64,000 bases of DNA from Selaginella tamariscina (lineage: Eukaryota; Streptophyta; Lycopodiopsida; Selaginellales; Selaginellaceae), in contig PUQB01000326.1 of NCBI GenBank assembly GCA_003024785.1, positions 124,001-188,000 of the forward strand, given 5' to 3'. The translations under genes and the position numbers were made by a program. Shown here one piece after another: positions 6,397 through 48,230 of the stretch; the stretch's first letter is position 1; every line of letters begins with the position of its first letter. Below the pieces are notes generated by a model that was given only the letters and a program-made list of their open reading frames with translations, did not search any database and was not told the DNA's origin.

Positions 6397-7855
6397 TGTC
6401 AAGTTTTAACCCAGAGGGCTAACATGTGGCAACACATGGCTACCAAGTGGCCTTATAGCGTCAATTCTCTATGTGAGTAACATTAAGTCTTCCATTATGA
6501 CCCAAGAGTCTGACTCAGATGCCTAATTAAATAAGAGTCTTGCCTTAAGTTCCCTATAATGACTATTCCCTGAATCCTAGAGGATAACCCGAGTAGAGTT
6601 TAGGATCCTGTCCCAGTAGATCTAGATAGACTCATGCCCTAACCTCATCAAGAAGATGTGCCTTACACATACCCGGGTATCATGAACCACGACTAACCCC
6701 TAAGGGTTTGAATGGCCAAGTCATATCCTAGACCTAAGACTAGTACTTAGTGAGAACACGAGTATGTGCCGTAAATGAACATAAGTGTTCTACTAAGCAA
6801 ACTACTTAAGGCTAGGTTTGGATAACCCTAAGTACATGACCTTGCGAGTGCCTCACGAAAGGACTCATGCTAACAAGCTTAGGTTGTTCAACCCTTGGAT
6901 TCTAAGAAGAACACTCCCCAGCTAAGTGTGCCAAAGCACACCTAGTTACAAGACCTAACCCTTAGGGTTCTAGAGTTGGCATTTAGGAGCCATGTTTGTG
7001 GCACTTGGTGCAACTCTCAAATATAAGGCTATGGCATGATAGCCTACATCGTGGAAGGCAGTGTCACATGGAGATGTGACACTGGGCTAGACATCACACG
7101 ATACAACGCTCGACGCACGCCCTTTGGGATTATGTCATGGGTTGGTCGCCAAGGGGTTGGATACTCTGATAAACAAGCATGCTTGTGCTTGCACTAGGGT
7201 GCTAGGCAATTGCTCAAGGAAGGTTAGGTCTCATAATCAAGTGTGCTTAAGCACACTTGGCTAGGGGAGTGTTCTCCTTAGAATCCAGGGGTTGAACAAC
7301 CTAAGCTTCTTAGCAAGAGCCTTTTTGTGAAGCACTCGCAAGGTCATGTACTTAGGGTTATCCAAACCTAGCCTTAGGGAGTTTGCTTAATAGAACACTC
7401 GAGTCCGCCTACGGCGCACACTCGTGTCTCATTAAGTACTAGCTAGGTCTAGGGTATGACTTGGCCATCAATCCCTTAGGGGTTAGTCGTGGTTCAGGGT
7501 ACCCCTTGTCGCCCTAAAGGGGTTGTACTCCCAAATGAGGGTGATTCTCAAGGAGCTTAGCTTATGTCATGGGGTATGTGTGAGACACATTTCCTTTGTA
7601 GGGTTAAGGCATGAGCCTGTCTAGGTCTACTAGGACAGGATCCTAAAGTCTACTTGGGTTATCCTCTAGGGTTCAAGGGATAATCATTCTAGGGGACTTA
7701 GGGTAGGACTCTAAGTCTTCTGCCTAATTGGGCCTCTGAGTCAAACTCTTAGAATTATCTTGAAAGACTTAACGTTGTTCATACATGATGACACCAAATG
7801 GCCACTTGGCAGCCATGTGTTTCATGTGTTGACCCTTCAAGTTAAAACTTTAACA
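6397..7855. repeat. Fold-back pair of X-type LTRs
   Basis: Bases 6397-6959 are an X-type LTR in minus orientation, and 6960-7855 are another in plus orientation. They meet at about 6960 without a spacer, and both outer ends are LTR 3' termini (TGTCAAGTTTTAAC on the left, AAACTTTAACA on the right). The arms overlap in content, so the single strand could fold into a long imperfect hairpin. A perfect 11-bp stem with a 4-base loop lies at 7059-7084. No matching target duplication is seen (AGAAA versus ATAGA). Confidence 0.65.
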
Positions 7856-13304: not shown

Positions 13305-14160
13305 TAAAAACCCTTGAGTGCGTGGATGAGGCATCCACTCTCTCAAAGGGGTGGTGAGTGGGAAGTAGTGGGCATGGGATCCAAAGGGTAAGGCATGTCT
13401 AAGTGACCAAAGGAGGGAGGTGATAGTAGCGCAACCCTTGAGTGCGTGGATGAGAAGGGGTGGTGAGTGAGAAGTAGTGGGCATGGGATCCAAAGGGTAA
13501 GGCATGTTTAAGTGACCAAAGAAGGGAGGTGATAGTAGCACAACCCTTGAGTGCGTGGATGGGCTCCACTCTCTCAAAGGTGGTGAGTGGGAAGTAGTGG
13601 GCATGGGATCCAAAGGGTAAGGCATGTCTAAGTGACCAAAGGAGGGAGGTGATAGTAGCGCAACCCTTGAGTGCGTGGATGAGAAGGGGTGTGAGTGAGA
13701 AGTAGTGGGCATGGGATCCAAAGGGTAAGGCATGTTTAAGTGACCAAAGAAGGGAGGTGATAGTAGCACAACCCTTGAGTGCGTGGATGAGGGCATCCAC
13801 TCTCTCAAAGGGGTGGTGAGTGGGAAGTAGTGGCATGGGATCCAAAGGGTAAGGCATGTCTAAGTGACCAAAGGAGGGAGGTGATAGTAGCGCAACCCTT
13901 GAGTGCGTGGATGAGAAGGGGTGGTGAGTGAGAAGTAGTGGGCATGGGATCCAAAGGGTAAGGCATGTTTAAGTGACCAAAGAAGGGAGGTGATAGTAGC
14001 ACAACCCTTGAGTGCGTGGATGAGGGCATCCACTCTCTCAAAGGGTGGTGAATGGGAAATAGTGGGCCTAGGATCTAAAGGGGATTGCCATTGAGGCCTG
14101 TTTAAGGTGATAGTAGCAACTCTTGAGTACGTGGATGAGGACATCCACTCTCTCAAAGGG
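13305..14160. repeat. Higher-order minisatellite, ~108/124-bp units
   Basis: About seven to eight tandem units, each opening with CCTTGAGTGCGTGGATGAG and each containing a TGGGATCCAAAGGG block. Two types alternate. Type A has a CATCCACTCTCTCAAAGG insert, GTCTAAGTGACC and AGCGCAACC. Type B lacks the insert and has GTTTAAGTGACC and AGCACAACC. The A-B pair is repeated about three times and the last unit (after ~14,040) is diverged. Overlapping minus-strand open frames of 110-170 codons here are repeat artefacts (HALPFGSHAHYF repeated), not genes. An LTR end follows directly. Confidence 0.85.
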
Positions 14161-16499: not shown

Positions 16500-16680
16500 A
16501 ACATAGTGTCACCATGCATAATCCCTTTTCTCATACATACACATCATGCATGATCATGATCCATAATATGTAACAAGTCTTTCTTCATACATACACACCA
16601 TGCATGATCCATAATATGTATTGTCACTCTTCTCTCATACATACACACCATACATGATCCTATACTCTGTCTCTCTAATA
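16500..16680 (+). repeat. Minisatellite in E leader
   Basis: Three to four imperfect copies of a unit containing CTCATACATACACACCATGC and ATGATCCATAATATGTA. The reverse complement of the same unit repeats at 49,340-49,640 beside E3, so it belongs to the E family leader. Confidence 0.65.
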
Positions 16681-16740
16681 TATATACTAATATGTATGTA
16701 TGTCTATGTGTATAATACTATATGTGTATATATGTATCGC

Positions 16741-17010
16741 TGCACGTGAAACTTTAACACTCTCATGGGCACACACGTGTTAAACCCTTGCATGATATTT
16801 ATTCTTGGGGTGTATGTGATATACCCACGCACACGCACATGCTGATAATATAATGAAAGAATATTCGTTTAGGGCGAATTTATAGTTTATTCTTTTTAGG
16901 GTTAAAGTATATTCTTAGAAGGAATATTCGATTAGAGTTAATATATATTCTATTTCTTTTAGGGTTTAAGTATATTCCTAGGTTTGTAAGGCGGCGGCAA
17001 AATCTCCTTC
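16741..17010 (+). other. Conserved leader of element E
   Basis: The block runs from CTTTAACACTCTCATGGGCA through several ATATTC...TTTTAGGGTTTAAG segments to GGCGGCGGCAAAATCTCC. It matches 48,940-49,200 in reverse complement. It has no open frame. It could be promoter or terminal sequence, but I see no clear TATA box tied to a start. Confidence 0.5.
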
Positions 17011-17019
17011 TCTCTCTCA

Positions 17020-17212
17020 CACAGGTGAGATCTCTCTCTCTCTCCACACGCACACTCCTCTGAGTTTATTTTTTTTTTTTATTCACATATATATTTATAT
17101 GCGTGTGTATCTTAATAATATAATTTAGATCTCTATCTCTCGCACACACACGCACAGTCGTATACATATACACACACAGATATATATATATATTATATAT
17201 ATATATTATATA

Positions 17213-17246
<34 letters not shown>

Positions 17247-17650
17247 ATATATATATATATATATATATTTCTATTTATTTTTATATATATGTGTGTGTGT
17301 ATTTGTATAATTTTATTGATTTGTTAATTGTATCTCTCGCACACACACGCACACTCCTGTATATATATATATGTGTGTGTGGTTGTTTATCTGTGTGATT
17401 TTATTTGTTTCACACACGATATACATATACACACACATATATATATATATACCTATGTATACATACATATATTATGTGTACCAGTATCTGTATAATTTTT
17501 TTATTTATCTATCTCTCGCACACACACGCACTCTCCTGTATACATATACATATACATTATATATGTGTGTGTGTGTGTATCTGTATAATTTTATCTAATT
17601 TGACTATCTCTGGCACACACACGCACTCTCCTACACACACATATACATAT
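17020..17650 (+). repeat. Microsatellite block with ~190-bp internal repeat
   Basis: CA/TG, TA and CT tracts are arranged in repeated blocks, each opening with ATCTCTCGCACACACACGCA (about 17,135, 17,331, 17,511; a variant at 17,604). Near-identical blocks in reverse orientation sit at 47,930-48,640 in E3, and simpler ones at 27,120-27,560 in E2. A long TA stretch at 17,180-17,275 is strongly self-complementary. Open frames here are simple-repeat artefacts. Confidence 0.8.
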
Positions 17651-17672
17651 TAAATCTGTGTGTTGTGTGGTA

Positions 17673-18370
17673 GCGGCGGATTAATCCCGCTGCTATATGG
17701 TGAGATGTGTGTAGCGGCGGGATTAATCCCGCCGCTATATAATTAGCCACTCGGCGGCGGGATTAATCCCGCCGCCATTTCAGGTAGGTTATTCGGTTAG
17801 CCAAATGAGCGGCGGGATTAATCCCTCCGCCTACGCATGCCCTGCGTAGAATCGGGCGGATTTATCCCGCCGCCATTGGCCCTAGGCGGCGGGATTAATC
17901 CCGCCGGATTCCGCACAGGGCATTGGCGTCCAGCGGGATTAATCCTGCCGCATAGGGACCGAGTGAAGGGCCTGGGCAGCGGATTAATCCGCCGAGCCTT
18001 CAATGCTTGTTGGAGGATGAATCCCGCCACCCTTCCTTTTTTACTCCTTTGGTGAGTCGGACCAATCCCAAACGTTTATGTCTGAAACATAGAAGGTTTA
18101 CAACATACCAATGGAGAGGACTGGGAAGGGTGGCGAGATTCATTTCACCATCCCTTACATGGTGGGCGAGATTAATCCCGCCGCCTTTCTGGAGTCACTG
18201 AAGGGGTGTGCTAAATAAATCCTGCCAAGTTCTCTCTGAGACCGAGAAGGGTGGCAGGGTTAATCCCGCACTCCCGTTCAGGGCCTCCAGAAAGGTGGCG
18301 AGATTAATCCCGCCCACTCTTTCAGGAGGCATTGAAGGGGTGGCGAGATTAATCCCGCCGCACCTTCCAT
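17673..18370 (+). repeat. Palindrome array 1, core GGCGGGATTAATCCCGCC
   Basis: About 15 copies of an inverted-repeat motif spaced roughly 30-60 bp apart. The most symmetric are 17,712-17,737 (a perfect 26-bp palindrome) and 17,753-17,776 (perfect 24 bp). Others lie at about 17,809, 17,853, 17,885, 17,931, 17,978, 18,010, 18,130, 18,157, 18,210, 18,250, 18,296 and 18,341. Copies grow more degenerate toward the gene, but ATTAATCC is mostly kept. The array ends about 330 bp before the ATG of the ParB-like gene. Possible roles are a protein-binding array, an origin- or promoter-like element, or simply a satellite. The sequence alone does not decide. It is not a CRISPR array. Confidence 0.85.
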
Positions 18371-18473
18371 ATGAATATATATGTGTATTAGTATATATAA
18401 GTTGCATATCTCATTTTATTTACTTTTATCATCTTATCATAATATTTCGAGTAAAAGCCAGTAAACTATGTAA

Positions 18474-18560
18474 AACTGTCCAAAGCTCACATTTGTGGTG
18501 GTTCTAAAACCAAATATTATCTTTCTTTTGCACTAGCACAAAGGTGAGCTTTGGACAGTT
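18474..18560 (+). other. 24-bp inverted repeat (hairpin) before the ParB-like gene
   Basis: Arms 18,474-18,497 and 18,537-18,560 pair over 24 bp with one mismatch. The inner 17 bases AACTGTCCAAAGCTCAC are perfectly complementary. The loop is 39 bases. The size fits a plant microRNA-like or siRNA precursor, or a cis regulatory hairpin. The right arm overlaps GTGAGC, a possible donor of a 5' untranslated intron that could end at TTTTGCAG (18,655-18,662). Confidence 0.6.
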
Positions 18561-18724
18561 AATTCGTCCACTTCTCTCTGTGTATTATTTTTGTATATTC
18601 GGGTTTATACAAGTGTGTGTGCGTTTTTATATGATTTGTATTCATAATGTATTATTTTGCAGAAGGACGATTTAATTAAACAAGGAGATTAAGTCATTAG
18701 TATGGAGTCGTCGTCAAATTCAGG

Positions 18725-18792
18725 GTAAGAATTAAAATAAAATCTGTTATACTCGGATATGTGCTTGAAGAATTAATCATTTTTGTATTCAG
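18725..18792 (+). other. Intron 1 of the ParB-like gene
   Basis: Donor GTAAGAATT and acceptor TTTTTGTATTCAG enclose 68 bp. Splicing joins the 23-nt first exon in frame to an open stretch (CGIEVALKTRAGEEMG). The short length and consensus sites fit a plant nuclear intron. Confidence 0.65.
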
Positions 18793-19289
18793 ATGTGGAA
18801 TTGAGGTGGCATTGAAGACGAGAGCAGGAGAAGAAATGGGCAGGGGGATTCTGGAATCAACTTGGCCATATTTCAAACTAAACGGGAAGCGCATTGGAAC
18901 AACCATGGTTGCTGTCAAACTAACCTCTATCACATCGCATGGACAAGCAAAACAATGGAAAGTGGGTGTGCTAGTCAAGCATCCGAAAGCATGCTGCAAC
19001 CCAGATTGAGCGATGCTCGAAACATATGCCTTGTTCCATCCAATGTCACGTTCTCGGATCCAGAGGTCACCAGTTACAACATTAATTTCGGGTGGTTTTG
19101 TCGACTTGTGGATAATGACGTTCACGTGTTCACTAATGATGTTGACCGTGGAGTTCTTCTTCAACTCAACGAAAGCCCATCTATGAAAGGGATCCAACTG
19201 GATGTTTATTTTGAAGATCTTCAGACTCATTGAGTAGGTGTATTCTCAGCAGAGATTGCTTCACAATACAAAAAATCCACAAGTGGAGC

Positions 19290-20251
19290 TGTTAAGTTTT
19301 TACCTGTGCCACAAAGCGGCTTGCCAGGTGCCAACCCTGGAATCCCCTCTCTTGGAAACCCACGAAACCTGGTAAAGTAACCCGTATTAGGAACCCAAGC
19401 CTTAGGAAGTCGAACCCCTAGCTGACTAAGTCCACAAACGAGACTCACCTTGTGAATCAGGATACACGGACTAGCCGAGCCTTAGGTGTCGTTCCTAGCT
19501 TGGTGTGGTTGAGGCGGCCGGAGCAAGGCCTCAACCACTAGTTTTGCGGAACGTGAACTCGAGCAATGTCTTTGAGCTTGCGGGTAGGTTTTCGGACCAA
19601 GGAATCTGACTAACTCCTTGGAAGTGACGTGCCCCTATCTCAAAGGCAAGATCCTGCCAACGATAAGGATAGTCTAACCCTGGGGTGGTTGTACCCCTGT
19701 CGTGTGGAAGTTTGGGCGGCACAACGGAGGGTTGCACCTTGACGACACAAGCTTAGCTTGCACCGGTAGGAGGTTAACGAGCTCTCTCTTGAACCCAGGA
19801 AACCTCACTACATATACTCTACCTTATTTATGTGACGAACCCCCCCCCCCCCCGTTTACCTAAGTGAGTAAGTGGGCTGGCACGGAAATGCCAGCCCTTA
19901 GAGAAAATGGTTGATCTAACCTAATCCTAAACCTAACCCCTAGGGAGGGGGTTTAGGACGTGGGGTTAGGGCAACCCTAGGGGTGTCCCTAACCCTTATT
20001 TTGACAAGCTATAATTTGCGAAGAACCCTAACATGGAACGTCAAAACGGGGGAGGGTTCTTTAAATGGAAGTGCTAGCTTCGCCTAGAGTTTCTTACAAA
20101 TACCTAACGACACCCGGCCGGACCATCACTAGATACCCAAGTGCACTATGTGGGCCTGTTTCTTCTACATCTAGGGTTCGTCACATAATCCAGTAGGTAA
20201 CAACAGTCAAACCCCAAAGTAAAGGGTCGAGTCATAGTAAAAACTATGACA
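19290..20251 (-). mobile_element. Solo X-type LTR inside the ParB-like gene
   Basis: 962 bp, bounded by TGTTAAGTTTTTACC on the left and AAAACTATGACA on the right (in LTR sense TGTCATAG...TTAACA). It is flanked by GAGC on both sides, a 4-bp target duplication. Removing the LTR and one GAGC leaves the coding frame continuous across the site, which proves insertion into an existing exon. There is no interior, primer site or polypurine tract, as expected after LTR-LTR recombination. A 14-base C run lies near 19,841-19,854. Confidence 0.85.
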
Positions 20252-20559
20252 GAGCAATCTTCCCTCTTCACATTGAAGAAGAACACAGCGACACCATTAA
20301 GGAGATTGAGAGGGTGGCTTGGTCTCAGGTTCTTTATAGATCACGTTCAATTTGCTTAGCAAATTTCGGGAGTGGAAGAGTGTGCCGAGAACATTAGAAC
20401 AGCATCAATCGGGGATCACACATGTTGATTTGGATCGTAGAAGAAAATCATTAGTCGTTTTGTCAGCTGCACCTGTGGCGTCCCATGCTGCAATAAGCCA
20501 CAAGGAAATGATGTTGGATGATAGGATTTACGAGTGTAGGGTTAAGTATTGCAGCGTCA

Positions 20560-21025
20560 ACCCAAACTTCAATTACAGGCCACTAATCAGGAACGTGTAG
20601 CTGAGCTCATGGAGAAGATGAAGGACGACAATTCTTACACCGTTCCACATAATGCTGTTTTGTGCGCATACTACGAGAGAAACAAAGGCGCTGACAAAGT
20701 GTGGATCACAACACCGGAACAAATGAGGAAGGTTCAGACGGAGAATAGAAAATCAGTTAAGTACTACATCATTAGTGGCCAGCACACAATAACGGCAGCC
20801 CAACGACTTCTCGACGAACACAACAAAGGAACGATGGCAACAAAACTTTCCGAGCATACCCGTGAGAAGCTGACGAAAAGATCGGCGTTTTTAGCGAAGC
20901 CGAATCTCACAATCGAGCAGTACCATAAGTTATCGACGGAATGGGACGCTGCAGACACTAACTACTACAACAGCAAAATATGGGAGAAGTTCAAACACAC
21001 GCGAGCCGTGTGGGAATCTCTTCAG
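20560..21025 (+). pseudogene. ParB/sulfiredoxin-like domain segment
   Basis: An open stretch of about 155 codons begins NQERVAELMEKMKDD, contains VKYYIISGQHTITAAQRLLD (about 20,755-20,815), and ends KHTRAVWESLQ at a TGA. The I-S-G-Q-H-T-x-x-A-A block is the box typical of ParB N-terminal domains (ISGQHRVxAA). Many such proteins bind CTP or palindromic DNA sites. No classical helix-turn-helix DNA-binding domain is evident after it. The final TGA is probably a mutated CGA, since the frame continues PQRATAGNTQSADYR to the next intron. Confidence 0.6.
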
Positions 21026-21073
21026 TGACCACAAAGAGCTACTGCAGGGAATACACAATCTGCGGACTACCGG

Positions 21074-21134
21074 GTAAGCAAATTGTTTGGGCGGGATTTA
21101 TCTTGCCGGTATATTAATCTGTCTTTTTTCTCAG
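21074..21134 (+). other. Intron carrying one palindrome copy
   Basis: Donor GTAAGC and acceptor TTTTTTCTCAG, 61 bp. Splicing joins two open stretches (ending SADYR and starting RVEEIVAVDFAQVGG). The intron contains a GGGCGGGATTTATCTTGCC copy at about 21,088-21,107, a variant of the palindrome found in the array upstream. Confidence 0.55.
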
Positions 21135-21289
21135 AGAGTTGAAGAAATTGTAGCAGTTGATTTTGCCCAGGTGGGCGGGAAGGAAACATCCTTTTTGATG
21201 ATGTTGATTTCTTGTCCCGAGGATAGGATCTTTGCAAATGGTTGGGGATTATGGAATCCTTTGCAAAAGGAACACTGAAGAAGAAGTAG

Positions 21290-22761
21290 ACAAGTGAAGT
21301 GGAGCCCTCAGAGAAGTCTGCAAAGAAACCCAGTAAGACGCCGAAGGCTAAGTCTGTTCAATCTATAAAGGATGTAGACAACGATTTCAAGCTCACATGG
21401 TTGAAGCCTTTAAATGGAACAACGATGGAGGAGATGGAAGTCTTGGCTGATTTGGTGATTGATGGCAAATTACAGATTAACAACAGCAGCCCCACCTCTC
21501 CTTTTCATCTCAAGGCAATGGAGTTGAAGACGGTCAGGCACTTCAAGGAGTGGTTGGGAATACACTGCCACAAACTGGGTTGGATTTCGGCTTCAACATA
21601 CGAAGAGGTCAGCAAATATTTGCATGTGACAAATGATGATATGCTTGTCGAATGGGTGAATCAATCAGAAGATCTGGGCAAGAAATCTATTGCACGCCAA
21701 CGCCAAATAAGGAGAACATTGGATGACGCCTTCTCTTATGGCAGTCCTTCAGCAGCGGAGAACCGAGTTGAACCTTATAAAGGAGGATGCTACGAATCAC
21801 GACAAGCCCTACAGATGTTTGTTGTTGGATTCGGAGACTTTATGGGGTACCATCACTGCTTGTAGGAAACCGTTTCAATTGTTCGTGATGGATCGGCGGG
21901 TGTCAAAAAATCCTTCGACAGACAGGACACTAGAGGATTTGGTGGAGAAACTTAGCCGTGCAAGTATGTACAAAGAAGGTATTTATTATTGAATTCATAC
22001 TTGCACTCTTGACTGATATCTACGTTTTCAGGTATTTATTTCTTGATTCTTGCTCATGTCACCGATACCTTTGCCTTCTCCTTTGCCAAGAGGAATAAAC
22101 ATCGTTGGACAGGATTTTATATGAATGATGCTGATCCGAAGTGCATTGATTCGGTTGTTCACTTGGTTGTTAGGAATGCGCCAAACAGTTTCAAACTTCC
22201 AAATGACTGGCCAGGCATCTGTTTGCACTCCAACGGCCCTGAACCTCCATCCGATACACCGATAGTGAGAGTGACGTATTCGGCAATGTACGTTATCCAA
22301 ACATCACAAGTCAAGCGGCACGGAGCATCGTCAACTTGATCAGGGGTCCTCACAGTGATGCGTGGGTTTTTGACTACTGCACTAGGGGGTCCGTCTTGAA
22401 GGAGTGTTACCTTCGGCATACATGTGTTTTGCCGTTGAAAAGGATAAGACCATGGTTGAGGACCTGAACAAGTGGATAGATAGGTTCTCAACTACCCCAA
22501 CGAATCCATAAAGGAGTATTTGAGAAAGTTCCCTCCGATAAGTGCGATAGCTCTGAAGACGAATCTGGTTCAATGTCGGAGTCTGAGGACGAACTTCAAT
22601 CAGATATTAGACCGGAAGTTATCTCGAGGAGTACAGAACATTCGCACACTCCATTACCCATGGAAACATCAATAGAAGATACAGAAGATCTGAACCATCT
22701 CACAAGCGGCTTAGACCTTCTTCGCCTCACTCAGAAGGTAATAGCGAAGAAGAATTGTTAA
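21290..22761 (+). pseudogene. Methyltransferase-like C-terminal half
   Basis: The segment YRCLLLDSETLWG, about 30 codons before LVEKLSRASMY, sits where N6-adenine/N4-cytosine methyltransferases carry the catalytic DPPY/NPPY motif, but here it reads DSET. FDYCTRGSVLKECY followed by CVFAVEKDKTMVEDL (22,365-22,470) resembles the S-adenosylmethionine-binding FxGxGT...E motif. A Glu/Ser-rich tail (ESGSMSESEDELQSD) ends at the TAA at 22,761. The order motif IV then motif I fits the beta class. With the catalytic motif replaced, the protein may bind rather than methylate. Assignment to the fold is inference. The intact-frame sister exon at 44,557-45,100 shows the same residues. Confidence 0.45.
21979..22031 (+). 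other. Intron in the methyltransferase-like region
   Basis: 53 bp, donor GTATTTATTATTG and acceptor CTACGTTTTCAG. Splicing joins SMYKEG to IYFLILAHV in frame, whereas read-through meets a TGA at once. The same intron sits in E4 (44,497-44,548) and in reverse in E3 (about 47,612-47,664). Confidence 0.7.
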
Positions 22762-22947
22762 TGAGTGACGAATAGTTGTAAATGAGTGTAACATAAGGCA
22801 TTTTTGTATATTTCGTTTATATTTGTACAGAAAATAAATTCTCAAGGATTAATGAAGCTTTTAGTTCAAACATGGGTCACACATTAACAAGGTAAATAAT
22901 ATACCTTGATAATTTTAAGGTCAGCTAATTATCATTTTGCAGATGTA

Positions 22948-23950
22948 ATGAAAATTGAGAACATGGATTTTCAGCATTGGCATGAGGTAAGAGAGGGGTT
23001 TGGCGACAATTTCTTGTGCCACATGTCAGAATGACAGAGTTCATGCAGGAAATGGATAATAATGCAGCTCAAAACATCGTTACCATGGGGGCCACTTCAG
23101 TTTTTTCATCATCATTTTTATTGGCTTCAGTTCCGAAATCAATTTCTTCAGCGCATGCAATATCTGAATCTTGTAAGGATGATGTACAATTAAATGATGA
23201 AGGGATAGGCAACGAGATAGTGGCAACGGATAAATGTGAAAGGGAGCAAACAAGTGATTTGCAAAGTATTCAAGAGGCAACGCTATCATGTTACTCATGG
23301 CCATATTGTGTTGTTGGATGTCAATGGTGTTCTGCTTCATCGACAAAGGCCCGAGGATAGGAAAAAAAAATCAAACAAGGAGATTTCATTCCTTGTCATG
23401 GTAAATTTCGATATGATATTATTTTTCGTCCAGGGTTGGATCGTCTCTTTCAAAAGCTTAAGGAGATGGGTGCGCTTGTGGGGATTTGGTCATGCATGCA
23501 GATTCATAACTTAACACCGCTGTTGAATTTGCTTAAGAAACATTGTAGTGTTGCAGAAGAGGTGATTCGTAAAGATTGGATTTTTGACCAGCGAATATGT
23601 TATAAACCTCTCGAATTTCACAATATAAGAAAGGAAAGCAAGCCATACTTCTTCAAGAATGAAAGAATAATTGGGACTCATGGGGAGATCAGTCGCTTAA
23701 GGATAATGAAGAATGCACATATTTAGTAGTAGACGACTCTCCTCAGAAGGCTATGCTCAACCAAAACATTGCTTGTATTCATCCAATCACTTTCGATCCA
23801 TATTCTGATACCGATATCATGGATGAGCTAGTGAACTACTTGGATACGTGCCTCAGAAAGAAGAATCTCGAAAATTTTTGTGAGCAGTATCCACCGTATC
23901 AACATTTCCTGAAGCTTTTCTTTCTCGTGATTTTGAATTTTATAAAATGA
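22948..23950 (+). pseudogene. HAD-superfamily FCP1/NIF-like phosphatase, broken
   Basis: The catalytic region is clear. HIVLLDVNGVLLHRQRP (about 23,301-23,350) holds the nucleophile Asp, in the DxNGVL form known in a plant FCP1-homology family. FRPGLDRLFQKLKEMG and VGIWSCM (23,425-23,500) carry the second motif, KPLEFHNIRKE follows, and LVVDDSPQKAML (about 23,730-23,760) is the acidic motif. The end, LRKKNLENFCEQYPP, also fits that family. The family dephosphorylates phosphoserine or is uncharacterised in plants, and the substrate here is unknown. Upstream is a Ser-rich N-terminal part (MTEFMQEMDNNAAQNIV). Frameshifts lie near 23,035, 23,283, in the A9 run at 23,362-23,370, and near 23,655. 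It follows the methyltransferase-like gene by about 190 bp on the same strand in every copy that keeps both. Confidence 0.75.
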
Positions 23951-24485
23951 AGGATAGCAACCGGGCGCTTTATAATATTATTCTTAAGGAACGTCATTTT
24001 TAGATGAGCCTTTATGCAGACCTTCTTATTACATCTTATGTATTAACAAGGATGGCAACTCCCAATTGCATTCGTGAGAGTGTTAGTGGTGGCAACAACA
24101 TCAAGATATTGACCAAAATGATTTGATTAATCCGGAGAGTGATGATTTAGACAAAATGAGGATTTCTCTTATATGGTTAGGAAGAAAGTATTTATAAATA
24201 AATTAACATGTTGATAAGAAATGATTTCATTTGTAATTATGTTTGATAGTATTTCTTCATTATTGTAAACTATTTTTAGAATAATATGAATATTCTAAGA
24301 TATTTTAGGAATATTCCTTACTAAGTAAGGTTATTGAAGGATTAATTAATTAATTAATTAATATTTAAGGCTTAATTACATATTAATTAAATGATTAATT
24401 AATAATTAAAACTTAAGTATTAATTAGTAATTTATTTTATATTCCCATTTTCACGTATCATGCCCACTTTAGTTACAACGTGCAT
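23951..24485 (+). repeat. 3' tail and terminus of E1
   Basis: AT-rich, with an ATTAATTAATTAATTAAT run at 24,343-24,361 and the terminal block CATGCCCACTTTAGTTACAACGTGCAT split across 24,460-24,485. The block recurs, in either orientation, at 9295, 24,775, 27,993, 43,665 and 45,199. Confidence 0.65.
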
Positions 24486-24774
24486 TCATATGAATTATAT
24501 TGCATTCAACATACATCCTACTCAAATATTTATTTGGTAATAACTTAACAATAAGTTAATTCAAGAGAGAAACTAATTAAATAAGTTATTACTCCACAAT
24601 AAATGGTACTTATTCTTTATCATGGCCTTGTTTAAGACTTATAATCAATGTTTTATCTTTTTACAAAGAGTATTAATGTTCTAAATACTGCTCAAATTGC
24701 TTGAGTGTATAATTTGTTATTTAGATTCAACAACCAAGTCTTCAATTCTTTGAGTTTGGCTTAATTTAAGCAAT
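24486..24774. other. Spacer between inverted E1 and E2
   Basis: About 290 bp of AT-rich DNA with no open frame, lying between the 3' ends of E1 (plus) and E2 (minus), which face each other here. Confidence 0.5.
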
Positions 24775-25189
24775 ATGCATGTTGTAACTAAAATGGGCAT
24801 GATACATAAAAATGGAATATAAAATAAATTATTAATTAATACTTAGTTTTAATTATTAATTAATTATTTAATTAATATATAATTAAGTTTTAAATATTAA
24901 TTAATTAACAAATTAATCCTTCATTAACCTTACTTAGTAAGAAATATTCCTAAAATATCTGAAAATACTCCATTGTAAAAATATTTACAATAATTAAAAA
25001 ATACTTTCAAACATAATTACAAATGAAATCATTTCCTTATCAACCTGTTAATCTTTTTGTAATTACTTTTTGCCTTAACTATATAGAGAAATCTCCTCAT
25101 TTTATCTAAGTCATCACTCTTCGAATTAATTAAATCATTTTGGTCAATATCTTTATGTTGTTGCCACCACCTAACACTCTCAAAATGTA

Positions 25190-26290
25190 GTTAGGAGTTG
25201 CCATCCTTGTTAATACATAAGCTGTGATAAGAAGAGGAGTGCATAAAGGTTTATTTAAACAATGACATTCCTTAATATAATATTCGGTTGCTTTCCTTTA
25301 ATTTATAAATTCAAAATCACGAGAATAAAAGTGTCAGGGTATGTTTTATATAGTGGATATTGCTCACAAAAGTTTTTCAAGATTCTTCTTTTTGAGGCAC
25401 ATATCCAAGTTCATCCATGGTATTAATATTAGAATATGGGTCAAAAGTGATTGGATGGATACAAGCAATGTTTTGGTTAAGTATAGCCTTAGAAGAGAGT
25501 CGTTTACTAGTAAGATATGTGCATTCTTCATTATTCTTAACTGATTAATCTCCCAATGAAGCCCAATTAATCTTTTCATTCTTGAAGAAGTATGGCTTAC
25601 TTTCCTTTTTTACATTGTAAATTCGAGAGGTTTTAATATATTCGTTGGTCAAAATCTAATCTTTACGAAATCACCTTTTCTATAACACTACAATGTTTGT
25701 TAAGCAAATTCAGCAGTGGTGTCAAGTTGTGAAACTACATGCATGACCAAATCTCCACAAGTGCACCCATCTTCTTAAGCTTTTAAAAGAAATTGTCCAA
25801 TCCCAAACGAAAATGATATTATATTGAAATTTACCATGATAACAAATGAAATCACCATGTTTGATTTCCTTTTCTTTGTCCTCAGGCCTTTGTTAATGAA
25901 TCAAAAACACCATTGACATTCAACAACACAATATGACCATGGGTAACAAGGGACAACGTTGCCTTTGAATGCTTTGCAACTCACTTGTTTGGTCCATTTT
26001 ATATTTATCTTTTAATGCTATATTATTACTTATCCTTTTATTATTACTTGTACATCATCATTACAAAATTTAAATATTACAGGCGCTGAAAAAAGTGATT
26101 TAGGAATTGAAGGTAATAGAAATGGTGATGCAGAAACTGAAGTGGTCCCCATAGTAATAAATGTTTTGAGATGGATTATTATCCATTTCCTGTATGAACT
26201 CTATTATTCTGACATGTGGCACAAAATTTTTTTGCCACACCTCTTTCTTACCTCATGCTTTTGAAAATCCATGTTCTTAACAGTTTTATT
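25190..26290 (-). pseudogene. HAD/FCP1-like gene copy in E2
   Basis: Reverse complement of the 22,948-23,950 gene with many substitutions and indels. Segments equivalent to the VNGVLL nucleophile (about 25,905), VGIWSCM (about 25,745), the DDSP region (about 25,497, reading VNDSLL) and LKKKNLEKL (about 25,370) are recognisable. The Asp pair of DDSP is altered (VND), so even the fold would be inactive. It is more diverged from E1 than E4 is. Confidence 0.65.
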
Positions 26291-26419
26291 ACATCTGTAA
26301 AATGATAATTAACTGGCCTTATAATTACCAAAGTATATTATTTACCTTTTTAATTTTTGAGAATTTATTTTCTGTACAAATATAAATGAAATAAATAAAA
26401 ATGCCTTATGTTACACTCA

Positions 26420-27062
26420 TCTATAATTATTTGTCACTCTATCAACACATTATCAATGCTTCTCTGCTGTTACCTTTTGAGTGAGGTGAAAAATGTCTTA
26501 ACCGTTTGGAAGATCGTTCAACATTTTTGTTTCTTTTATTGATGTTTCCATGGTTAATAGAGTAAGTGAATGTTATGTACTCCTTGAAATAACTTCTAGT
26601 GTAATATTTGGTTCAAGATCATTCTCAGACTCCAATATTGAACCAAATTCCTCTTCAAAGCTATTGCACTTCTCAGAAGGGAACTTTCCTAAATACTCAT
26701 GTATGGGTTTGTTAGGGTAGTTAGTTAAGAACCTCTCTATCTACTTGTTCAAGTCATGGACTATGGTCTTATCTTTTTCAACAGCAAACACACAATGTAT
26801 CCTGAAGGTAACACTCCAAGACGGATCCCCTAGTGCATTAGTAAAAAACCCATGCATCATTGTGCGGACCCTTGATCAATTAAACAATGCTCCATGCAGG
26901 TTGTCTTATAATGTTTGGATAACGTACATTGTTGAATACGTCCCTCTGATGGTGGTTCATGCTCGTTGGAGTGAAAACAAATGCCTAACCAGTCATTTGA
27001 AAGTTTGAAATTATTTGGCGTATTCTTAATAACCAAGTGAACAATCGTATCAATACATCTAA
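26420..27062 (-). pseudogene. Methyltransferase-like gene fragment in E2
   Basis: Minus-strand match to the 22,120-22,790 region: NNFKLSNDW and the segment before the S-adenosylmethionine-like motif are seen near 26,990-26,880, and the acidic tail near 26,640-26,560. Indels break the frame repeatedly. The 5' half is absent. Confidence 0.55.
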
Positions 27063-27696
27063 AATCAGCATCATTGGGGTGGTGGGATTAATCTCGTCAC
27101 CACTTCAAGCATGTGGGTGACAAATAAAGAAATATAAAAACTTATAAAATATATATAAACATGTATATATATATACAATTGTGTGTGTGTGAGAGAGAGA
27201 TAAAGAAATTACATATATACAAATACACACATACATATACATTCAAGAGAGAGATAAAGTAATTATATATATATATACAAATACACAGGTACATACACAC
27301 AGTTTGTGTGTGTGTGTGTGTAAGAAATAAATAAATAAATTATAATATACACACACACACACACATATATGTATATACATGTGTGTGTGTGTGTGTGTGT
27401 CTGTGTCTGTGTGAAAGATACATAAATTAAATTATACATATAATACACACACACACACACACATATATGTATATGTATATACATGAGTGTGTGTGTGTGT
27501 GCGAGAGATAGATAAATATATTATATTATACATATAACACACATATATATTTGTATATGTATATATATAAGTGCGGCGGGATTAATCCCGTCACCATTTC
27601 AAGCATGTGTGTGTATGATAAATAAAGAAATATAAAAAACTTATAAAATACATATAAACATATATATATATATATACATACAATTGTGTGTGTGTG
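27063..27696. repeat. Duplicated palindrome plus microsatellite block
   Basis: A segment with the palindrome variant GGGATTAATCTCGTCACC, CAAGCATGTG, an AAATATAAAAACTTATAAAA stretch and CAATTGTGTGTGTG occurs at 27,070-27,190 and again at 27,573-27,696. CA/TG, TA and GAGA tracts lie between (27,190-27,560). It is a shortened version of the array-plus-microsatellite part of E1. Confidence 0.7.
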
Positions 27697-33757: not shown

Positions 33758-34187
33758 TGTCATGACCGAATACAGGATACGAGTTACATGATAGCCTATA
33801 GGATATTCTTATAGGATATGCCTATAGGATATACCTACAGGATATGCCTATAGGATATATATACAAGATATGCCTGCAGGATATTCTTACAGGATATACC
33901 TACAGGATATTCTTACAGGATATGCCTATAGGATATACTACATGATATGCCTAAAGGATAAGGGTCACTATTTTTAGCTCATGACCATTTAGACTCATGA
34001 CCAGATTAGCTTGGAGTTATGAGTATAAAAGCTCCGACCTAATTGTTGTACAATCCGTTACTATCAACACCAGTCATTTACATATTCTTGTCTTGTTGTT
34101 CCTTGTTCTTGTTTTGTTCCTTGCTCTTGCCTTGTTCTTCAGTCAAGCCTTCTTATTGTTATCTTGCTCTTAGGTCGTGGCTTGACA
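33758..34187 (+). repeat. 5' LTR with internal minisatellite
   Basis: 430 bp. Between about 33,775 and 33,960 it is a run of near-identical 20-bp units such as AGGATATGCCTATAGGATAT, each nearly self-complementary. Next come the block CTCATGACC...AGCTTGGAGT, a TATA box, and a T-rich region ending GGCTTGACA. Confidence 0.9.
34024..34030 (+). promoter_or_regulatory. TATA box of the 5' LTR
   Basis: TATAAAA in the context GAGTATAAAAGCTCCGACC. The same sequence is kept in the 3' LTR (39,597-39,603), and on the minus strand in the solo LTR and the copy at 54,920. The position between the minisatellite and the LTR end fits the retrotransposon promoter. Confidence 0.65.
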
Positions 34188-34289
34188 ATTTGATAGTAAC
34201 TGCTTTCATAGCTTTACGATTTTCAGCTACTTTTTTTCCTTGATTCTTCTCTTTTCGTTTTTCTCCTTTTTTTTTTTCTTTCATAGATC

Positions 34290-35255
34290 ATGGCCGATTT
34301 TGAGCACTTTCAACGCAAGCACCAAATATTGCTTCATGAGCTAGCCACTTTGCACCAAGTGATCATAAATCTACAAGGTTCCACCAACGCGGCGCATACA
34401 GCTGCTGATGCATCCTCCAAGGCTGCTGCACATGCTCTCTCTCAAGCATCCGTGATTTCCTCTACATCGAACCTTCTTCGGAGCCGAAGATTAGCATGCC
34501 AAAAAAAGTTCAATGGCAATCGTGTCGATTTTTAAGGGTTCCTGAATCAGATTAAGCTTTTTGATCCGCATACAACCACGTCGCTACTGACTGATGCACA
34601 AAGGTTGGCCTTTTGGCATCCCTATTAGTTGGATCTCCACGGGCTTGGGTTGCCCCTTTGCTGGAACGTGACGACATTGATGGAAGACTTTGAAGGTTTC
34701 GTGGCTGCCTTTGAAGCTTGCTTTGGAATCCCGATAAGTATGTTCCGCATGCACAAAGTTATGAAAGCGCACACAAGGATCTTGACCAGCTTCCGTTTAT
34801 GCATCCGAATTTCAGCAACTTTGCACGAACATTCTATGGGACGAGACTGTATTGATTGAACACTTTCATTTTGGGTTGAGGATGATGTGAAGGACCTTCT
34901 CCTTTCGTTACCGGATGCCCAAACATTAGCGGAGATCATGCAACAGGCCGTTCGCTGCGACAACCGCTTGTTCGAGCGTCGTCAGGAAAAATCCCGTCAG
35001 TAGTTCCTGCAAACCAATCCTGCAGCTGTGGTACATACTTTTGCGACACCTTCTGGAGTAGTTCCTATGGAGGTTGAGAAATACAAGCGTGGCTCACTTT
35101 CCGCTACTGAGAAGCAACGTTGCCGCAGTGAGAATCTATGTTTGTATTGTGGTGAAGCAGGACATAAGGTACGAAATGTCCTATTAAAGCCAGGAAGTTC
35201 AAGACGCATGAAGTTCAGTTGGAAAACTTCAATGTTCACTTCATTTAGGAGCCAC
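34290..35255 (+). pseudogene. gag: gag of the 34-39 kb chromovirus
   Basis: Starts at the ATG at 34,290 (MADFEHFQRKHQILLHELAT), with a helical Ala/Ser-rich N-terminal part. The capsid region follows in shifted frames (DFEGFVAAFEACFG near 34,690; a LLLSLPDAQTLAE-like helix near 34,900). The zinc knuckle CLYCGEAGHK (about 35,145) has lost its last Cys through a deletion, while the other two copies keep AEC. The role is packaging of element RNA. It is broken near 34,535, 34,620 and 35,000. Confidence 0.75.
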
Positions 35256-35289
35256 GAAGTTGGACGTAGGTGCATGCTCCATTGGTGCT

Positions 35290-35450
35290 GCTCATACCAT
35301 TCTATCACTTAAGTTTCCTATACACATTCATCTCAATAATCGAGAGCTCAAGGAGTTTGCCCTATTAGACACTGGTGCAAATGCATGCTTCATGGATGAC
35401 ACTTTTACAACTCAACATGGCATTCCGATGAAAGAAGTTGAAGCGTGTAG
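35290..35450 (+). pseudogene. Retropepsin-like protease segment
   Basis: LKEFALLDTGANACFMDD (35,348-35,400) contains the D-T-G-A active-site motif of retroviral-type aspartic proteases. The rest of the domain is short, and a long Ser/Pro-rich linker (35,450-35,850) follows, which in the sister copy near 61,100-61,500 is longer. Confidence 0.75.
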
Positions 35451-35869
35451 TTCCTGTAGAGGTGGCCAATGTATAGGATTCTTCCAATCCTATACACTTG
35501 TCAACATCCACATATGTTTCTCCCAATCCTTGCCTCTTTTCATTACTCTTCTTATGTTCCACCCCCAAGATCCTTCCTCTTTTTCAATCACATCTCCCTC
35601 CTTCTCCTCTTCGAGTTCTTACACTACCATGCATGAACTTGCCACTGATCCTGCTCCTTTTCATCTTTTTGCCTTCTAAGTAACTCCTACGTCCTCTTTT
35701 ACCTTTCCTGTATCTGATTCCCCTGTTTTTCAATTTCCTTCTCCTGTTCCTTCTTCTCCTCCTTCTTCCCTGCCATCCAAGTATCACTCCTTTCAGAACG
35801 TTTTTGACAAGCACAAGGCTGCAGTTCTTCCTGTTCACAGGTCCTACGACTGTCCTATTGATCTTGTGG

Positions 35870-36789
35870 AAGGAAAGACTCCACCGTTCGGACCAATTTA
35901 TGCACTGTCACCTACAGAATTGGAAGTTCTTTGTCAGTACATCGAGGAAAACTTGGCATCCTGCTTCATTCGTCACTCAAAGTCCCTACAGGAGCATCTA
36001 TCTTCTTTGTCAAGAAGAAAGATGGGAGTTTACGTTTGGTTGTGGACTACAGAGGTTTGAATCAAGTCACCATTTGGAATCGGTACCTGTTGCCATTGAT
36101 TCTGGAACTTCTCGATCGGTTGCAAGGAGCAAAAGTGTTCACAAAGATTAACTTACGAGGGGCTTACAATCTTGTACGGATTCGTCCAGGCGATGAGTGG
36201 AAGACTGCCTTTCGTATAAGGTATGGACACTTTGAGTATATGGTGATGCCTTTCGGACTTACCAATGCCCCAACCGTGTTCCAACACATGGTGAACGACA
36301 TTTTTCGTGACTTCTTGGACCAGTTTGTGGTAATCTACCTCGATGACATTTTGATTTTCTCCAAGGACCAGGCGGCTCATGACAAGCATGTACGAATAGT
36401 CTTACAGAGGTTTCGCGAGCATGGCCTGTATGCGAAGTTGGAGAAGTGTTTCTTCGACAGGGATACTGTAGAGTTCTTGGGCTACATCGTCTTTCCTGCT
36501 GGCGTTTCCATGGATATGCACAAGGCCCAAGTCTGTACGAGATGTACAATGTTTCCTTGGCTTTGCAAACTTCTACAGGCGTTTCATACATCTTCTCCAA
36601 GCGTGTACTTCCACTCACGGAACTCACCAAGAGCACAGGAGTGTTCTCTTGGTCCGACAAGGCAGAACATGCATTCACAACTCAAGAACATCTTCATGAT
36701 AGCTCCGATTTTAGCACATCTTGATCCTTCTCGTCCCTTCTTCGTTGAAGCAGTTGCCTCGGATTTTGCAGTAGGATCTGTTCTATCAC
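35870..36789 (+). pseudogene. pol: Reverse transcriptase domain
   Basis: Motifs in order: [20 protein letters not shown] (about 36,005-36,062), [31 protein letters not shown] (36,208-36,265), [12 protein letters not shown], and the catalytic [12 protein letters not shown] (36,328-36,364). LEKCFF and EFLGY follow. A deletion after 36,530 removes part of the thumb and connection. One frame is open from 35,931 to 36,794, so the palm is nearly intact. A solo LTR then interrupts the RNase H part. Confidence 0.9.
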
Positions 36790-37372
36790 TGTAAGTCACG
36801 ATCCAGGAACCAGGAAGTGAGTAGGATTTCGAGAATAGGAAGGCTTGACTCAGGAACAGGACCGAGAGCAGGACAAGAACTAGGAATAAGACAGAAACAG
36901 GACAGATCCAGGAGCAGGGCAGGATCAGGATAGGATCCGGGAGCAAGACAGGAAAGCGTAGGACAGGATCCAAGAACAAGATAGGAACAAGACAGGATCC
37001 AAGAAAAGGCAAGAGCAGGAGGCAAGGAGCAAGACACGAACAAGACAAGAACAAGAATGATCGTAGAAAGACTGGTGTTGATAGTAACTGATTGTACAAC
37101 AATTAGGTCGGAGCTTTTATGTTCACAACTCCAAGCTAATCTGGTCATGAGCCTAATCTAGTCACTAGCCAAAATTGGTCATCCTTATCCTATAGGATAT
37201 CCTGTAAGAATATCATGCGGGAATATCCTGTAGGCATATCCTGTGAGAATATCCTGCGGGAATATCCTGTGGCATATCCTGTGGGAATATCTTGCGAGCC
37301 GAATCCTGTATCGCATATCCTATAGGCTGAATCTTATATGTCGTATCCTGTATCCTGTATCGGGTCGTGACA
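36790..37372 (-). mobile_element. Solo chromovirus LTR inserted in RNase H
   Basis: 583 bp, minus orientation, bounded by TGTAAGTCACGATCC and GGGTCGTGACA, with the family minisatellite at about 37,185-37,350. It is flanked by a perfect 5-bp duplication ATCAC (36,785-36,789 and 37,373-37,377). The host coding frame continues across the site. Compared with the host's own LTRs it carries an extra ~150-bp GGACAGGA/GAGCAGGA-rich stretch also found at 63,600-63,720 and 54,750-54,830, so it belongs to a longer LTR subfamily. Confidence 0.95.
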
Positions 37373-37760
37373 ATCACAAGTTGGAGAAGATAAGTTGCTT
37401 CATCCTGTAGCTTTTACTCTTGTAAGTTCCTTTCGACGGAGATCAATTACGAGATTTATGACAAGGAACTCAAGGCCATTGTGGATTCGTTCGAGGAGTG
37501 GCAGCTTTCCTGAAAGTGCTGCGCATCATGTACAAGTTTCTTATGGATCACAAGAACCTGGAGTATTTTCAAACGGCTCAAGTTCTCAGTCGGCGACATG
37601 CTAGGTGGGCAAAGTTCCTATCACGTTTTTGATTTCATCATCATCTACAGGCCTAGTTTTCGAAATGGTAAGGCAGATGCATTGTCTAGGCGCTCTTACC
37701 TTGCACCGACCCTGGGCGATCCTGCATATGACTGTCAAAAGCAAGTGTTGTTAGGTCCTG
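37373..37760 (+). pseudogene. RNase H and tether remainder
   Basis: After the inserted [19 protein letters not shown] (about 37,455-37,500) and RNGKADALSRRSYL (37,660-37,700) are the conserved RNase H segments (the ADALSR motif). Two frameshifts lie between them. The zone to 38,030 is the linker to integrase. Confidence 0.8.
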
Positions 37761-38029
37761 ATCGACTTTCGGCTTGTGGATACAAGTTCATCAGGCCTCC
37801 AGTAGATTCCACACTCCTACAGGACATCCATTTGCAGTTGGCTACAGATGACTTGGCAAGGAATGTGTTTTCACACATTAGTCCTAACATGGCAAGTTCC
37901 TCTTCCTTCAGTTCCAGTACAGACTACAAGTTGTTTTACCATACAGGACGGACTCCTGTATTGGGAAGGTCTCTTGTATGTTCCTGTTGGTGTTTGCAGG
38001 ACTCATGTGGTACATGATTGTTATGATAC

Positions 38030-38760
38030 CCTGGCTACATGACATTTTGGTGTGGCCAAACAGTTGAGTTGGTGACTCGTAACTATTGGTGGCCTGGGTT
38101 GCGAGGTTTTGTGGACAAGTTTGTACGGAGTTGTGACACTTGCAATAGGTCGAAGATGCCTTTCACGTGCCCTCTGGTCTTCTTCGTCCTCTTCCTGTTC
38201 CTTCTGCTCCTTGGAGATCCATTTCTATGGATTTCCTCACAGATCTTCCTCCTTCTCATGGATTTGATGCAATTCTTGTCGTGGTTGACCGTTTCACCAA
38301 ACAAGCTCATTTCCTATCATGTCACAAGATTGCTACACAGGCAGACAACTGCTGAGTTGGTGATCCGCGAAGTATTCCGACATCATGGTCTTCCTGAGAG
38401 CATTATTTTCTGATCGAGGTCCACAATTCATGTCCAAGTTTTGGCAGAACTTCTCCGGAGTCTACAGGTTAAGCGGACCTTTCTTCAGGATACCATCCAC
38501 AAACTGATGGGCAGTCAGAACGCACGATTCAGACCTTGGAGCAATATCTTCGCTGCTTCATCAGTTACCAACAGGACAACTGGTTGGACCTTCTTCCAAT
38601 GGCGGAGTTTGCCTACAACAACTCCGTTCACGCATCTACATGTCAGACATCTTTCTTTGCTCTTATAGGCTACCATCCACGTTTTGACTTTGCTCTCCTG
38701 CTTCTCCTTCTTCTCTCCTACAGTACAGGATCGTCTCCAACATCTTCGTCAGGTACATGA
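38030..38760 (+). pseudogene. Integrase domain
   Basis: The zinc-binding half gives ELVTRNYWWPGLRGFV and [10 protein letters not shown] (38,060-38,155). The core gives [17 protein letters not shown] (38,225-38,275, first Asp), then SDRGPQF near 38,413 (second Asp) and an A-QTLEQYLR-like segment near 38,530 with the Glu lost to frameshift. The domain inserts element DNA into the chromosome. It is broken by at least three frameshifts. Confidence 0.85.
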
Positions 38761-38929
38761 GGATCTCCAAGTTCATCTTTAGCAGGCACAGGAACGGTAC
38801 AAGCATTATGCTGATGCTCATCGTCAACCGACACCTACATACAAGATTGTGATCTCATGTAGCTTCTTCGTCGGCATATTCGCATCATAGGCCTTCTTCT
38901 AAGTTAGATTTTCAACATTGGGCCCTTAC

Positions 38930-39300
38930 AAGATTGCGGCTGAGGTCAATCCTGTAGCTTTCCGACTCGAGTCACCATCTACGTGAAACTTCACCCTATG
39001 TTTCACACTTCTTTGTTGGAGCCATATCATCCTTCTTCTCTTCTTGGTCGTGCTTCTTCTCCTCCCCCTCCTGTGGTCATTGACGGTGAACCTGAGTATG
39101 AAGTTGCAGCCATCCTTGATTCTCGTCTTCATCACGCCAACTTCAATACTTGGTGGATTGGAAAGGTTATTTGCCTACCGATCGCACTTGGGAACCTGCA
39201 TCCAACTTACTCCATGCTTCTTCCAAAGTTGCTGCTTTCCATCGGCGTTATCCTACTAAACCAGGTCCCAAGACTCGTGGACTCGTCCTTAGGAAGAAGG
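38930..39300 (+). pseudogene. Integrase C-terminal region with chromodomain
   Basis: [33 protein letters not shown] and [19 protein letters not shown] (39,152-39,210 in the third frame) are the chromodomain of chromoviruses, including the aromatic residues of the cage and the WEP segment. Such domains bind modified histone H3 and direct integration. A frameshift splits it at about 39,150. Confidence 0.85.
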
Positions 39301-39303
39301 TGC

Positions 39304-39741
39304 TGTCACGACTGGATATAGGATACGAGTTACAGGATATGCCTATAGGATATTCCTACAAGATATGCCTATAGGATATACCTACAGGATATGCCTATAG
39401 GATATTCCTACAAGATATGCCTTAGGATATACCTACAGGATATGCCTATGGATATGCCTACAGGATATGCCTGCAGGATATTCCTACAGGATATACCTAC
39501 AGGATATTCCTACAAGATATGCCTAAAGGATAAGGGTCACTATGTTTAGCTCATGACCATATTAGACTCATGACCAAATTAACTTGGAGTTGTGAGTATA
39601 AAAGCTCCGACTTAATTGTTGTACAATCAGTTACTATCAATACCAGTCATTCTACGATCATTCTTGTCTTGTTCCTTGCTCTTGCCTTGTTCTTGAGTTA
39701 GCCTTCTTATTGTTATCTTGCTCTTAGGCCGTGGCTTGACA
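39304..39741 (+). repeat. 3' LTR of the chromovirus
   Basis: 438 bp, TGTCACGACT...GGCTTGACA. The minisatellite (about 39,325-39,530) has a different number and order of units from the 5' LTR, and the remaining sequence differs by scattered substitutions, which indicates an insertion that is not recent. Confidence 0.9.
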
Positions 39742-43027: not shown

Positions 43028-43664
43028 CTGTGCCGGGCATGATACATGAAAATGGGAATATAAAATAAATTGCTAATTAATACTTAAGTTTAATTATTAA
43101 TTAATTATTTAATTAATATATAATTAAGCCTTAAATATTAATTAATTAACAAATTAATCCTTTATTAACTTACTTAGTAAGGAATATTCCTAAAATATCT
43201 TAAAATATTTGTATTATTCTCCATTGTAAAAATATTTTACAATAATTAAAAAATACTTTCAAACATAATTACAAATGAAATCATTTCCTTATCAACCTGT
43301 TAATCCTTTTATAATTACTTTCGCCTTAACCATATAAAGAAATCTCTTCATTTTGTCTAAATCATCACTCTTCGGATTAATCAAATTTTTTGGTCAATAT
43401 TTTTATGTTGTTGCCACCACCTAACACTCTCACGAATGCAGTTAGGAGTTACCATCCTTGTTAATACATAAGTTGTGATAAGAAGTGGAGTGCATAAAAG
43501 CTTATCTAAATAATGATGTTCCTTAATAATAATATTGTAGAGCGCCTAGTTGCTTTCTTTTAATTTATAAAATTCAATATCACGAGAAATAAAAACGTCA
43601 GGGTATGTTTTATATGGTGAATATTGCTCACAAAAGTTTCCAAGATTCTTCTTTCTGAAGCACA
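43028..43664 (-). mobile_element. E fragment: tail plus 3' part of the HAD gene
   Basis: Begins with GGGCATGATACATGAAAATG (common terminus minus its last bases) and ends inside the HAD gene C-terminus (CTTTCTGAAGCACAT, about 43,660). No functional coding sequence. It interrupts an X LTR. Confidence 0.6.
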
Positions 43665-45198: not shown

Positions 45199-45252
45199 AT
45201 GCACGTTGTAACTAAAATGGGCATGATACGTGAAAATAGGAATATAAAATAA
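44289..45252 (+). pseudogene. Best-preserved methyltransferase-like exons (E4)
   Basis: Two open stretches are joined by a 52-bp GT-AG intron at about 44,497-44,548: LIKEDATNHDKPYRCLLLDS to SRASMYK, then FLILAHVIDTFAFSFAKRNK onward, which is open for 230 codons. FDYCTRGSILKECY and CVFAVEKDKTMVEDL are intact, and the DSET segment stands in the catalytic position as in E1. The 1- to 4-base losses found in E1 after 22,260 are absent here. The last ~45 codons (after DESGSVSF) are out-of-context sequence from the fused microsatellite and neighbouring terminus. The N-terminal ParB half is missing, so it is a gene fragment. Confidence 0.65.
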
Positions 45253-46690: not shown

Positions 46691-46859
46691 CAACTGTTTC
46701 ATTACATCTGCAAAATGATAATTAGCTGACCTTATAATTATCAAGGTATTATTATTTACCTTGTTAATGTGTGACCCATGTTTGAATTAAAAGCTTCATT
46801 AATCCTTGAGAATTTATTTTTGTACAAAATGCCTTATGTTACACTCATTTATAACTATT

Positions 46860-48192: not shown

Positions 48193-48230
<38 letters not shown>

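Follow-up and report, generated by a model that had tools for sequence, protein, structure and literature searches.

Two arrays of one palindromic site

The DNA analysed here (the window) is a stretch of 64,000 nucleotides from Selaginella tamariscina (GenBank assembly GCA_003024785.1, contig PUQB01000326.1, positions 124,001 to 188,000 of the forward strand); positions below are those of the window, and a strand is named wherever one was assigned. It contains two arrays of an 18-bp palindrome (GGCGGGATTAATCCCGCC), one within a decayed multi-copy mobile element that carries a weakly ParB-like gene and the other before open reading frames (ORFs) that include a DUF7869 domain; read from sequence, both look like clusters of a shared, putative dyad binding site. 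Array 1 (17673–18364) comprises 15 sites, namely 14 with at most six mismatches to the core between 17674 and 18359 and one shortened site at 17979–17992, and has a period of 44–45 bp in its 3' part. In its first part the sites are unevenly spaced, at intervals of 33–121 bp if 17979 is disregarded. The full 18-bp core is present without mismatch at 17716, 17756 and 17888, where perfect palindromic symmetry extends over 26, 24 and 20 bp. Near-exact sites (at most three mismatches) number 24 in the window compared with none in 100 dinucleotide-preserving shuffles; ten fall in array 1, 11 in array 2 and three elsewhere (21090, 27081 and 27575), while a limit of six mismatches adds two single sites, at 34981 and 58999, which were left uncounted. 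Array 1 ends at about 18364, which leaves ~339 bp to a candidate start codon (ATG at 18703, identified by eye). A preliminary description of this DNA had reported some 15 palindrome copies, two of them perfect over 24–26 bp, ending ~330 bp before a gene, and these measurements bear it out. An isolated 22-bp perfect palindrome with at least six G or C also occurs at 7238–7259, distant from the arrays.

Array 2 (51609–52288) was overlooked in that description; it lies 33 kb from array 1 and consists of 14 sites with this core, of which two are exact. The ORFs 3' of it (52443–54615, forward strand; start placed by eye) were taken as one gene by proximity, and the ORF at 53986–54612 contains a DUF7869 domain (PF25273, E 1.4e-20), on which no paper was found in the open-access literature searched; a retrotransposon-like repeat starts after these ORFs, at ~54695. 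Array 2 starts ~2 kb past the detected 5' end of one copy (copy B, below) of the element that surrounds array 1, and given this proximity the two arrays may belong to a common element. By eye, the genes downstream of both arrays were reminiscent of a plant TNP1/En-Spm-type domain; this was not confirmed, and a shared N-terminal domain was rejected (none by Pfam, none by BLASTP, an equal score in 162 of 200 shuffles).

Conservation and composition of the arrays

In both arrays the core is conserved and the spacers are diverged. With the shortened site at 17979 set aside, leaving 14 + 14 sites, the identity of the cores is 0.79 in array 1, 0.81 in array 2 and 0.80 across the two, values inflated by the choice of sites by core resemblance; flank identity is 0.24–0.47 within the arrays and 0.24–0.34, near random, between them. 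Because the sites had been chosen by their core, an 18-bp frame was also slid over the unbroken 44–45 bp runs (five units in array 1, seven in array 2), a test that is less affected by that choice, although its units were likewise found by core. Identity in these runs peaks exactly on the palindrome frame, at 0.81 in array 1 and 0.88 in array 2, compared with 0.36 and 0.56 at the spacer centres. One site is thus retained in two arrays whose spacers are unrelated, which would be explained most simply by a factor common to both.

A plain palindromic minisatellite, that is, a 44–45 bp tandem repeat spread with elements and bound by no factor, would leave some of the same traces: the tandem period is found in both arrays, microsatellites and other tandem repeats are abundant alongside, and where array 2 is regular its spacers agree clearly better than by chance, as they would in a tandem repeat of recent origin, so that the tandem origin of array 2 remains visible. 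We nevertheless regard this explanation as unlikely, since the core is better kept than the spacers of the very same units, is equally kept between arrays whose spacers are unrelated, and stays near consensus at most sites of the irregularly spaced first part of array 1.

Both arrays are richer in G+C (0.52 in array 1 and 0.49 in array 2) than the window (0.376), and their CpG observed/expected ratios (0.91 and 0.75) exceed that of the window (0.50). This composition, together with a position ~150–340 bp before the first ORFs (gene starts approximate), would suit clusters of host transcription-factor sites that make strong promoters. However, the ratios in the flanks are much the same (0.88 and 0.71 for those of array 1; 0.61 ahead of array 2), so that the arrays do not stand out in CpG; no match to a known plant site was obtained, and the core, checked by eye, does not fit the E2F consensus WTTSSCSS. 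A host promoter cluster is accordingly an explanation to which we give little credence.

The mobile element around array 1

Array 1 is part of a mobile element that is decayed and present in several copies; the plant mobile element surmised in the preliminary description is upheld by comparison of the window with itself, in which four larger copies were recognized. Copy A (16522–24490, forward strand) is delimited at its 5' side by the end of its similarity to copy B and ends 3' in ...CATGCCCACTTTAGTTACAACGTGCAT; array 1 lies ~1.2 kb inside this detected 5' limit, immediately preceded by a microsatellite-rich tract (17017–17669) that recurs in copies B and C. Copy C (24776–27592, reverse strand) is internally deleted and has palindromes beside its microsatellite tract, at 27081–27098 (three mismatches) and 27575–27592 (one mismatch); both are within a duplicated unit of 111–122 bp, a further point in favor of a minisatellite. 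Palindromes accordingly occur at the microsatellite/gene junction of A, as array 1, and of C, where one of the two stands at the junction, and the site is clearly present in two (A and C) of the three copies that keep this junction. From the third, copy B (45200–49643, reverse strand), the array and the 5' half of the gene are deleted, and a doubtful palindrome remnant is left at the junction; copy D (44206–45108, forward strand) is a C-terminal fragment of the ParB-like gene without the array region. Smaller fragments end at ~9289, 27990 and 43664. The 3' terminus, CATGCCCATTTTAGTTACAACrTGCAT, recurs at six places with at most three mismatches over a 21-base piece (shuffle mean 0.01); no inverted repeat matching it was found at the 5' side of copy A. 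A shared flank of A and B beyond 16522/49643 was rejected, the outer matches (pieces >60 bp, E 0.001) being simple repeats and one 66-bp piece.

Copy A carries two genes. The 5' part of the ParB-like gene (18703–19377, forward strand; exon limits by eye) has a probable intron and frameshifts and is followed by an inserted repeat of approximate extent 19378–20206 (limits by eye), similar copies of which, for the parts 19664–19846 and 20086–20251, are present elsewhere in the window. Beyond it lie a 159-amino-acid ORF (20549–21028, forward strand) with the ParB-type box IISGQHTITAAQ at 20768–20803, 2.4 kb beyond array 1; a lone palindrome-like site with three mismatches (21090–21107) in a probable intron, placed by eye; and the C-terminal part of the gene (21290–22758, forward strand). 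The second gene (23221–23947, forward strand) is NIF (HAD-type) phosphatase-like and broken, matching PF03031 at E 2.5e-05 on the unjoined ORF 23361–23723 and at E 2.5e-11 on the joined reading; to our knowledge such a gene is unusual cargo for a plant DNA element. Both genes are frameshifted and the ParB-like gene is in addition interrupted by the repeat; the latter is therefore a pseudogene in copy A, and copy A itself is dead.

Other features of the neighborhood were recorded alongside. A small hairpin (18474–18567, arms of ~20 bp, AACTGTCCAAAGCTCAC ... GTGAGCTTTGGACAGTT) stands between array 1 and the gene and is possibly a miniature inverted-repeat transposable element or a foldback element. 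Element fragments at 43035–45225 alternate in orientation, and the terminus at 43670 abuts internal sequence of the phosphatase gene. About 1.2 kb upstream of copy A is a match to DUF620 (PF04788, E 4e-08), a family not known outside plants, which fits a plant genome; a 233-bp tandem repeat (13309–14082, 3.3 copies, 96% matches) precedes the ORF with this match by ~0.5 kb. Retrotransposon-like copies occupy 33758–39741 and 54695–63761, with an RVT_1 domain at 35862–36794 and an RT_RNaseH domain at 56629–57114; they are probably of gypsy type and have arrays of a 13/26-bp repeat (TACAGGATATGCC) at several places.

The ParB-like gene as a possible binding partner

In the preliminary description array 1 and the gene downstream were proposed as a possible pair. 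In such a pair the ParB-like protein would bind the palindromes as bacterial ParB binds parS, would spread along the element or bridge it, and would thereby control segregation, silencing or transposition. Array and gene are indeed found together in copy A, parS sites are palindromes, and clustered palindromes beside a ParB-type box (YYIISGQHTITAAQ) recall both bacterial ParB–parS and ParB/sulfiredoxin-like phage proteins, the nearest boxes being those of Pseudomonas phage hairong (DYQIIGGQHRTEAA) and phage nickie (DYQIIGGQHRTEAS), compared with KYYIISGQHTITAA here. The box scores 27.4 with a profile built from 12 ParB-like proteins of E. coli and phages, above every one of 100 shuffles (at most 18.1) and above four other proteins of the window (9.0 to 12.8). 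However, the similarity extends over 30 columns only, at a probability of 16%, whereas three members of the 12, each left out in turn, scored 130 to 232; and the box reads GQHT, with threonine where all 12 reference proteins have arginine, a residue with a functional role in GxxR-type boxes. Only the box aligns, unlike in ParB–parS systems, and the gene has probable introns. Copy A is the sole copy in the window to retain the box region.

With the gene product, Pfam, NCBIfam and PHROGs gave no match to ParB but only sub-threshold ones to other families (PH_BUD3_C, E 0.011; phrog_21535, E 0.17; NF051850, E 0.038); the hidden Markov model (HMM) of ParB_N (PF02195) is itself a weak test, as E. 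coli YbdM scores 24.5 bits with it, less than the cut-off of 26.3. A single-sequence AlphaFold2 model was poor (mean predicted local distance difference test score, pLDDT, 50.8), and Foldseek with this model returned nothing credible, with a best E of 0.27 and no ParB among the best 50 of 329 matches. No homologues were found for the 705-amino-acid joined reading (E 0.01; 6562 candidates) or for the 192-amino-acid ParB part (E 1; 157 candidates), and among solved structures nothing credible was found (best E 1.6 and 0.25). Phage records gave three matches to the ParB part, at E 8, and none to the C-terminal part; viral contigs yielded no relatives of three query proteins and one lone palindrome. 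Eight stretches with paired GGGATTAATCCC cores in prokaryote genomes (six with two copies, two with five and eight) were taken for unrelated. In the open-access literature searched no paper was found on the palindrome core, and for ParB, transposon and plant together no title on the subject stood among the matches listed. Judged on its sequence the product appears weakly ParB-like: the box is present and scores above every shuffle, but the ParB-like domain that the preliminary description proposed to look for by HMM search was not recovered.

The C-terminal part had been called methyltransferase-like, and this was not confirmed: Pfam, NCBIfam and PHROGs contain no meaningful methyltransferase match (the best in PHROGs, at E 0.47, is a family of unknown function), and with an N6/N4 DNA methyltransferase (PF01555) profile, a narrow one built on 12 YhdJ-like proteins, the score of 21.1 was equalled by 3 of 100 shuffles, that is, no gain over shuffled sequence. 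A structure model of this part was discarded (pLDDT 32). No dioxygenase was called, the one match being sub-threshold (E 0.16).

Array 2 bears on the pair as well. The same site is arrayed there before ORFs of another family, and because these are unrelated to the ParB-like gene, the view of array 1 as the private target of the ParB-like product is weakened; that the array behaves like a set of binding sites is upheld. We therefore consider a dedicated ParB–parS-like pair improbable.

A proposed shared site for an element factor

The reading that we favor, as somewhat better than an even proposition, is that the arrays are cis-acting dyad sites on plant DNA mobile elements, bound by a trans-acting factor of the elements and working like VANC target repeats. 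Placed immediately upstream of a gene of the element, the array would be the target of a dimeric DNA-binding protein that the element itself encodes and that would occupy its many sites together; and the bound factor would switch the promoter on against host silencing, or bring the element to the transposition machinery. As two different genes, ParB-like and DUF7869, have arrays, the factor is probably shared in trans; the DUF7869 gene too would be an element gene. Candidates for the factor are at least three, namely the ParB-like protein, the DUF7869 protein and a host factor. The most elaborate version, in which a captured ParB-like protein and parS-like arrays before the element's own genes, shared with the DUF7869 gene, make up a sequence-specific, spreading system of anti-silencing or transposition control in a eukaryotic transposon, is a long shot.

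Several observations weigh against sites for an element factor. The selection of sites by core inflates core identity and extends, to a lesser degree, to the sliding-frame test; the spacers of array 2 retain the agreement of a tandem repeat. Of the core changes, 36 of 55 are C>T or G>A (27 sites; 17674 and 17979 left out), as expected of decay of methylated DNA, so that the present arrays would be partly dead; this suggests past methylation and decay of the array cores. At best the doubtful remnant is left in copy B, the region is absent from copy D, and for the DUF7869 gene neither a tie to the element of array 1 nor a sign of mobility was seen.

The favored reading likens the arrays to those of VANDAL21 and VANC21, an anti-silencing system of Arabidopsis. 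The targets of VANC in VANDAL elements are short, densely set motifs that frequently form tandem repeats and are found 5' of element genes as well as within their introns (PMC5735166, PMC10398659); the VANDAL21 motif arrays grow by tandem duplication (PMC5735166). Array 1 is likewise a dense array of short motifs in noncoding element DNA; it lies 5' of the gene, and a single further site lies in a probable intron. The VANC21 motif differs in being the 9-base YAGTATTAY, in one orientation, whereas the site here is an 18-bp palindrome. No Pfam match to DUF1985 or DUF287, as in the VANC protein, was found in the ORFs scanned, which are part of those of the window.

Two further systems invite comparison. 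Fungal transposons have captured TET/JBP DNA-modification genes (PMC12730594), and resemble the present element in the general idea of accessory genes directed against silencing; they differ in that here no dioxygenase was called and the methyltransferase likeness is unconfirmed. The other comparison is with the CACTA (En/Spm) group, of which a soybean element was the subject of one title among the matches listed for palindromes and subterminal repeats. Subterminal repeats of CACTA elements are bound by TnpA, which would parallel the putative recognition of repeated sites by an element protein here. However, the present array lies ~1.2 kb inward of the 5' limit detected for copy A, and the 3' end (TTACAACrTGCAT) is presumably not of CACTA type; the ORFs scanned contain no CACTA transposase domain, and no search aimed at CACTA ends was made.

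If the arrays are sites for an element protein, they would represent a second, palindrome-based version of the VANDAL target-array logic in plants, associated with genes on which little has been described (ParB-like, NIF phosphatase-like and DUF7869), and would provide a very specific 18-bp DNA address together with a factor that can be tested. Should the ParB-like protein prove to be this factor, a plant transposon would be making use of a DNA clamp of bacterial type.

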